Below, in pieces: positions 28,875 to 56,671 of a stretch of DNA of 64,000 nt (position 1 is the stretch's first letter; every line of letters begins with the position of its first letter). Made by a program: the position numbers and the translations under genes. The notes under the pieces are model-generated. The model was not told the DNA's origin, did no database searches, and worked only from the letters and a program-made list of their open reading frames with translations. The DNA comes from Halorubrum sp. GN11_10-6_MGM. Lineage in GTDB: Archaea; Halobacteriota; Halobacteria; Halobacteriales; Haloferacaceae. The stretch is from positions 1-64,000 of the forward strand of contig NZ_SGUC01000010.1 in the NCBI RefSeq assembly GCF_005435165.1, written 5' to 3'.

Positions 28875-28948
28875 GAACCGAACGGGGTCTCAGCGGCTCG
28901 GTTGTACGTCGTTGCTAGCAAATCGCTATACGGCACGGACACCGCCGA

Positions 28949-29179
28949 AGCCCCAGTCGCGAAGCGGGCGCACGCTCGGGGCGGTCCTCGCTCGGTCACT
29001 TCGCTCCCTCGCTGCGGTCCTACCGTCGCCTGCGCCCGCTTCGCGACTGCCCCTTCGATTCCCGCCCCGCACAGCACCGCGCCTCACGCCTCCCCAGCCT
29101 CGTCGGCCTCCCTGCGGTCGGCCGACTCCCTCGCGCGTGCTGTTCGGCCCGAGGCGGCCTCACAGGCACGCGCCACCGC
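28949..29179 (-). ncRNA. Structured intergenic repeat, copy A (candidate ncRNA or hairpin element)
   Basis: A 231-base element homologous to 56397-56637. It has a 19-bp perfect stem (28954-28972 with 29031-29049; CAGTCGCGAAGCGGGCGCA and its complement). It also has a 7-bp stem around an 11-base loop (29102-29108 / 29120-29126) and a third stem GCGCGTGC/GCACGCGC near the right end. A 27-base block (29081-29107) and a 15-base block (29065-29079) are identical in both copies. The strand is assigned because a TATA-like TTTATAAAT stands, on the minus strand, at the same distance from the element end as in copy B. It is not coding: open frames differ between copies. I do not recognise the family; a DNA-level palindromic repeat is the alternative. 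Confidence 0.6.
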
Positions 29180-29185
29180 ACTTCG

Positions 29186-29194
29186 ATTTATAAA
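29186..29194 (-). promoter_or_regulatory. TATA-like box at the edge of structured element copy A
   Basis: On the minus strand TTTATAAAT, seven bases outside the element edge (…GCGGTGGC). The same A+T box (ATTTGTAAAT) occurs at equal distance beside copy B at 56382-56391, so it is conserved with the element. Confidence 0.5.
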
Positions 29195-56396: not shown

Positions 56397-56637
56397 GCGG
56401 TGGCGCGTGCCTGCGAGGCCGCGAAGCGGCCGAGCAGCACGCGCGAGGGAGTCGGCGGCGACCAACGGGAGCCGCCGACGAGGCTGGGGAGGCGTGAGGC
56501 TACGGTGCTGTGCGGGGCTGGTGGGACTCAAAGGGGCAGCCGGGAGGGCGGCGCAGGCGACGCAAGCACTGGAAGGAGTGAGCGAAGTGAGCGACTGAAG
56601 CGCGCAGCGAGCGTGCGCCGCCCTCCCGGCTGGGGCT
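56397..56637 (+). ncRNA. Structured intergenic repeat, copy B (candidate ncRNA or hairpin element)
   Basis: A 241-base element, homologous and inverted relative to 28949-29179. The 19-bp perfect stem is 56537-56555 with 56614-56632 (CAGCCGGGAGGGCGGCGCA and complement), differing from copy A at five positions, all compensated. The second stem has 9 bp (56451-56459 / 56471-56479; 7 bp in copy A) around an 11-base loop whose ends GACC...GGGA are the same. A small hairpin GGCCGC-GAA-GCGGCC (56418-56431 region) lies within the outer GCGCGTGC/GCACGCGC stem. Identical blocks: 56474-56500 and 56503-56517. The orientation is chosen by the conserved TATA-like box. The function is unknown. Confidence 0.6.
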
Positions 56638-56671
56638 TTGGACGCCTTCGCCGCCGATCCACTGTTAGCTT

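Follow-up and report, generated by a model that had tools for sequence, protein, structure and literature searches.

What is the inverted pair of intergenic repeats in this stretch of Halorubrum sp. GN11_10-6_MGM, and is its stem kept for the sake of the fold? The window is the whole stretch of DNA that was analysed (64,000 nt; NZ_SGUC01000010.1, positions 1-64,000). An earlier note had described a two-copy element with a 19-bp stem, and both copies sit where it had placed them, although the element reaches slightly past the limits that it gave: copy 1 spans 28946-29179 and copy 2, its inverted relative, spans 56397-56640. The main stem of copy 1 (28954-28972, CAGTCGCGAAGCGGGCGCA) pairs perfectly with 29031-29049, and the arms of copy 2 lie at 56614-56632 and 56537-56555 (CAGCCGGGAGGGCGGCGCA and its complement). 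As claimed, the two stems differ at 5 of 19 positions and all five differences are compensated. Just outside the 19-bp stem, the closing helix S0 also differs in a compensated way (CGAAG/CTTCG in copy 1 versus CAAAG/CTTTG in copy 2). The 27-base identical block is present as well, but other blocks are longer than was claimed (for example GCCGACTCCCTCGCGCGTGCTG, 22 bases). This two-copy observation is not chance: a 21-base core of the element has 94 exact matches in the source genome, against 0 for the reversed control, and the single-strand folds of the two window copies, on the strand used by the earlier note, have z-scores of −3.6 and −5.3 relative to shuffles. When the window was searched with a covariance model (R2), there were exactly two matches (28934-29074 on the minus strand, 117 bits, and 56512-56652 on the plus strand, 115 bits; E ~1e-22), and the next had an E-value of 0.32.

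On the strand used by the earlier note, the Halorubrum element reads CCRAAGCCCCAG - S1 stem-loop - CTGCCCCTTYGAGTCCCRCCC - CCGCAC-rich linker - CCTCACRCCTCCCCARCCTCG - S2 - CTCCCTCGCGCG - S3 - GGCRCRCGCCACCGC. Besides the reported stem, then, there are additional covarying hairpins (S0, S2, and S3). In copy 1, the main hairpin domain (S0 and S1) occupies 28946-29057 on the minus strand. Read on the folded strand, which is the reverse complement, it is made up of S0, an invariant GGG/GGG internal loop, the variable 19-bp S1, and a purine-mismatch loop stem; on the plus strand, the S1 arm nearest the start of the window is 28954-28972 and its complement is 29031-29049. Beyond this domain lie a double G tract (29061-29067; GGGCGGG on the folded strand, CCCGCCC on the plus strand), the conserved core CCTCACGCCTCCCCAGCCTCG (29082-29102, plus strand), S2, which is hypervariable yet self-complementary (29102-29126, minus strand), and S3, with the outer helix GCGCGTGC/GCACGCGC and an inner GGCC hairpin (29133-29173, minus strand). 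The AT-rich TTTATAAA adjoins the S3 end (29187-29194, no strand assigned) and may be a TATA-like motif or may mark the end of the element. In copy 2, where the plus strand is the folded one, the main hairpin domain is at 56529-56640, the core is at 56479-56499 on the minus strand, and the S2 and S3 hairpins run to the GGCACGCGCCACCGC end (56397-56478, plus strand).

The element is not a two-copy family, as the earlier note had it. The source genome holds about 95-100 copies, as seen by BLAST (at least 40 scored copies), by the exact core matches (four of the 94 are one tandem run at a contig end), and by a profile search (99 distinct matches among the extracted loci). The core is present in all 53 of the Halorubrum genomes searched, with 7-175 copies each, and in named loci of Haloparvum, Halobellus, and Halorussus. 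The exact core suggested a genus-restricted element, but covariance models overturned this. Model R1, built on the main hairpin, had matches in 125 of 169 genomes from the family, in 21 of 28 genera, and the wider model (R2) matched 254 of 322 haloarchaeal genomes and 66 of 80 genera (E ≤ 1e-5, where the E-values are approximate, from a shortened calibration). In a draw over the phylum, all 58 matching genomes belonged to the same order; the per-genome counts from these family, class, and phylum searches are lower bounds. The element was absent from IMG/VR and phage collections, and Halorubrum plasmids gave only two weak matches, so we rejected a viral or plasmid origin in Halorubrum. Copies are found on megaplasmids of other genera, Halobaculum, Natrinema, Haloarcula, and Halomarina among them, almost always without an annotated feature beneath them.

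The element also breaks assemblies, as several draft contigs terminate beside the core. (In the draft genome G000, contig ends lie at most 25 bases from the core in C41:18, C116:24, C125:19, C146:19, C149:25, C153:13, C169:9, and C179:19.) At the start of C146 (L092:19-144), the contig end has four tandem repeats of a 35-bp unit that includes the core, due either to slippage or to an assembly artefact.

The common fold is supported by very strong covariation. Across 166 distinct S1 stems (positions 4-13), Watson-Crick pairing with a stem's own partner is 91.9%, compared to 63.5% for shuffled partners (the maximum of 500 shuffles was 66.3%); uncompensated stem changes in further copies were looked for and not found. 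In a 50-copy alignment, 97.2% of cells are paired (83.3% if shuffled), 22 of 33 pairs have double changes, and double-change cells number 239, against a shuffle mean of 71.5; if the partner is slid by one column, pairing falls to 28-35%. Many intergenic copies with significant covariation, which the earlier note had named as support, do exist. Compensatory double changes are seen in 25 of 31 pairs across ten genera. In the source genome, where the best paralogue of a copy has a median identity of 84%, at least 12 of 13 pairs are Watson-Crick in 64 of 68 testable copies. For the closing helix (S0), the tally is A-T 80, G-C 56, and mixed 4. So, the stem letters change freely and pairing is kept in almost every copy. 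S2 is replaced whole: one self-complementary hairpin gives way to another between copies. The element had been said to lack a conserved reading frame, and S2 lengths (which include 21, 25, 28, 29, 30, 33, and 39 nt) indeed do not keep to multiples of three. We rejected protein coding because there is no common frame, hairpin lengths vary, and changes follow the pairing.

Does compensation show that the fold is functional? In two copies (L164, at the coaBC site, and L088, on C135), one arm has been rewritten so that it complements the other exactly, even across a CCCC segment that is normally mismatched. The two conversions run one in each direction and are apparent products of template switching. 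Arm-to-arm templating within a strand does happen, then, and part of the covariation could be due to it. Because of these two copies, it is unsafe to argue for function from compensation alone. The reading given by the earlier note is supported in part.

Other evidence bears on which strand folds. On the strand used by the earlier note, A.C mismatches outnumber G.T mismatches by 62:14 in S1, 34:7 in the S3 outer helix, and 11:5 in S2, counts that are not independent because the copies have a shared history and exchange segments. Put the other way, G.U versus A.C on the minus strand is 48:14 in the 50-copy alignment and 20:7 in other genera. Read on the minus strand, the internal loops come out as GA/GA and GGG/GGG, but on the plus strand as TC/TC and CCC/CCC; in the 50-copy alignment, the G.A mismatch blocks are 94-98% conserved and the GGG/GGG loop is invariant. 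In 162 of 166 copies, the minus strand also has the better fold, with a mean difference of 7.5 kcal/mol, and it does so in 25 of 27 copies from other genera, while random control windows have a strand bias of about zero. As wobble pairs, G.A mismatches, and folding energy all favour the minus strand, it is well supported that selection acts on this strand in single-stranded form, and hence on the reverse complement of the strand that the earlier note had read. RNA is the natural reading of such a folded strand; single-stranded DNA, which would also tolerate G.T pairs, is less probable.

In Halorubrum, an AT-rich motif is sharply placed 10-20 nt outside the S3 end; it is a candidate TATA-like motif that may belong to a promoter of the element's own. 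With the usual archaeal spacing, a minus-strand transcript would have to begin within the outer helix of S3, and the arithmetic of the start site would suit the plus strand better than the folded one. The motif was not seen in the copies of G059, a genome with a different arrangement (below). TTATAA motifs in Halorubrum S3-side flanks are phased at about 14, 45, and 78 nt from the end of the element (for example, at 29187-29194 of the window).

The class-wide part of the element is S1 alone, about 110-140 nt, with GGGYGGGACTGAAAGGGG and GGGGCTTTC on its two sides when it is read on the folded strand. The conserved form on the minus strand is GGGYGGGACTGAAAGGGGC - variable stem - 2-bp blocks split by G.A mismatches - variable stem - GGGGCTTTCGAGGT, and in Halorubrum it is preceded by two further hairpins and a G-rich core. 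Of 200 copies, 183 have GGG-N-GGG upstream of S0. In G059, S1 domains are arranged in inverted pairs whose outer ends are likewise inverted (GTACTGTTCAGA / TCTGAACAGTAC). Inverted unit pairs also occur in G022 and G046, and they are not the rule in Halorubrum, where the outer positions that correspond to the G059 ends often carry TTTATAAA.

Other repeats accompany the element. The S0-side arm may have 1-3 decaying tandem units of about 60-70 bp each before it. We observed such units (TTTATAAA ... GAACACCTCCAAAGCCCCAG) in L015, L031, L137, and L143; the outermost are decayed and shared between species, as if new units join next to the hairpin. A structured insert (TCCTCCGGAAGACGGTCCTGCTCGC..., about 75 bp) recurs in the S1-core linker: it is present in two copies of the source genome (L075 and L077) and in one from another species (L293). 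There is also a second family, of about 43 bp, with twin hairpins and a TGGCA-type linker (for example, GAGGCGC-TAC-GCGCCTC-TGGCA-GCCGGCGGC-GTT-GCCGCCGGC). Both of its hairpins vary in sequence and stay self-complementary, and it is often inserted within the main element (L150, L090, L057, L096, L138, and L108) or at intergenic sites (many in L335-L374). None lies within the 64-kb window. (We do not use the count from a "double hairpin" search, which also picks up chance palindromes in coding sequence.)

The element is, then, a class-wide, apparently undescribed, dispersed, non-coding structured element, and there is good support both for a fold on the minus strand and for its upkeep in each copy separately. 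As for what it does, we favour on balance a folded single strand, likely an RNA, under selection in each copy. Some structured single-strand function is fairly probable, and, given such a function, we would choose RNA over single-stranded DNA with slightly more assurance. The selected object would be the folded minus strand, most likely as an RNA transcribed from that strand and bound by a trans-acting protein. That all copies stay folded might mean that many of them are in use or that misfolded copies are removed. Also, with potassium at molar levels in these cells, a G-quadruplex may arise from the four conserved G tracts that lie around the closing helix. The copy number is unusual for a trans-acting RNA and counts against this explanation. 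A more specific version is possible but doubtful: a class of structured RNA found throughout the haloarchaea, from tens to more than 100 gene copies in each genome, whose members fold around a conserved G-quadruplex and a G.A-mismatch hairpin stable in molar KCl and share a function in trans. If true, such a high-copy RNA gene family would be without a described prokaryotic counterpart.

A second possibility is that the element is non-autonomous mobile DNA that behaves like REP/BIME, PATE, or SMR repeats: a transposase acting in trans would move a single-stranded DNA hairpin, and only folded copies would move. High copy number and intergenic sites are as expected, and haloarchaea are known for mobile repeats that lack a transposase (PMC3119063). 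Presence also varies: 10 of 30 species have the element upstream of coaBC, in one place and orientation, and in some of the rest the gene pair is there but the element is not (L165 has only a short gap); near dph2, the copies of relatives differ in place and orientation. MITEs have terminal inverted repeats in common with a transposon, and a target duplication; the outer ends of the inverted pairs in G059 resemble such repeats, with no target duplication obvious by eye. However, near-identical copies are missing in the two genomes compared. The best paralogue identity there is at most 89.5%, so that none reaches 95%, and for copy 2, identity is 77-81% with orthologues and as high as 86% with paralogues. 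Between two sister species (95-98% identical), all six of the sites compared are shared or have decayed at the same place, and there was no clean empty site among the six; the flanking sequence on the S3 side is collinear, and other paired versions have taken the place of S1 and S2. These copies show concerted evolution of old copies, homogenised by exchange, and no recent burst of transposition. The Y1 family (PF01797) is absent from 11 of the 53 Halorubrum genomes, which bear 11-116 copies, and the number of TnpA genes does not correlate with copy number (rho −0.01). No transposase was found near four annotated plasmid copies. Across 24 TnpB/TnpA loci, there were no ends shared with the element and no profile match, and, with copy number unlinked to TnpA number, we rejected an IS200/IS605-derived element or an omega RNA. 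The REP/BIME alternative raised by the earlier note thus gains from the inverted pairs in another genus and loses from the 11 genomes without a REP-type transposase domain. Overall, we consider mobile DNA unlikely, though more probable than the two readings that follow.

Third, the element could act in the chromosome as DNA: a hairpin or G-quadruplex site between genes that serves nucleoid or topoisomerase functions, repair, or transcription termination. The copies are intergenic, the flanking genes are ordinary, the G tracts are invariant, and the element is scarce on Halorubrum plasmids and absent from the viral collections. Among 233 classified copies, 76 are in convergent gaps, 56 and 53 in the two kinds of tandem gap, and 48 in divergent gaps (classes from a heuristic gene caller that looks for acidic proteins), so convergent gaps are somewhat commoner than divergent ones. 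But despite the strand asymmetry of the fold, there is no orientation preference in tandem gene pairs (53 versus 56), and other genera have the element on megaplasmids. We think this improbable. Since the element does not follow the direction of its neighbouring genes, it is unlikely to act in cis in a directional way, and we rejected a cis terminator or leader linked to gene direction. An apparent strand bias along one replichore was dropped, since the match lists give forward matches first (L314 is a further reverse copy).

Finally, an old palindromic repeat without function, whose arms stay complementary by template switching during replication and by gene conversion, would account for the arms rewritten from their partners in L164 and L088, the hairpin modules exchanged between loci, and paralogues that are more alike than orthologues, but this is already disfavoured and very improbable, because neither the GGG/GGG loop nor the G.A blocks should survive arm copying, yet both are nearly invariant, and because arm copying predicts no asymmetry of G.U versus A.C, yet this asymmetry is strong; selection on the fold explains both.

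If the folded single strand is functional, then it is among the most repeated structured non-coding elements known in prokaryotes, and it is missing from Rfam and from gene annotation in the records examined. It supplies hundreds of natural compensatory mutants and a test case for folds with G tracts and tandem G.A pairs in near-saturated KCl. It is also a cause of assembly breaks and of ectopic gene conversion in Halorubrum genomes. More broadly, it bears on how to tell selection from the self-correction of palindromes, which is a general problem for covariation evidence.

How does the element compare to known systems? The earlier note recognised no known class of non-coding RNA, and, consistent with this, Rfam 15 gave no family match at the gathering score or at a relaxed threshold. 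Like the structured RNAs in Rfam, the element has conserved single-stranded motifs, strong covariation, and wobble pairs on one strand, and it can be searched for with a model; it differs in having no family match, tens to 175 copies per genome, and a transcript that is putative. Like the omega RNA of TnpB, it is structured, repeated, and haloarchaeal, but in the annotated regions examined no tnpB or tnpA adjoins it, and it has no sequence overlap with the 24 TnpB/TnpA loci. REPs are about 20-40 nt and are tied to RAYT (Y1) transposases. The element resembles REPs and BIMEs as a dispersed intergenic palindrome, in inverted pairs in some genomes though not as a rule in Halorubrum, but its conserved domain covers 110-142 positions (about 110-140 nt), its covariation is extreme, and it occurs in genomes without a match to the Y1 family.

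In the open-access papers searched, we found no description of the element in haloarchaea, and nothing equivalent in work on Halorubrum repeats, haloarchaeal REPs, structured RNAs, or G-quadruplexes. The nearest described elements are apparently the palindrome-associated (PATE) and small mobile (SMR) repeats of Haloquadratum walsbyi, which lack a transposase (PMC3119063, for this and the following comparisons). PATEs have near-terminal palindromes in common with IS605-type transposons and strain-specific insertions without target duplication. The element differs in lacking ends shared with IS200/IS605 and recent copies, and although its presence varies between species, it gave no clean empty site at 95-98% identity. 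SMR-A is about 110 bp with terminal inverted repeats, its copies are over 95% identical, and it is inserted in PATE palindromes, whereas the best copy identity of the element is at most 89.5% and its sites are between ordinary genes. The class-wide covariation that keeps the fold of the element is not reported for PATEs and SMRs in the sections consulted. What the element shares with them is that it is haloarchaeal, transposase-free, high in copy number, palindromic, intergenic, and targeted by smaller hairpin repeats: the twin-hairpin inserts within it recall the SMR elements that attack PATEs.
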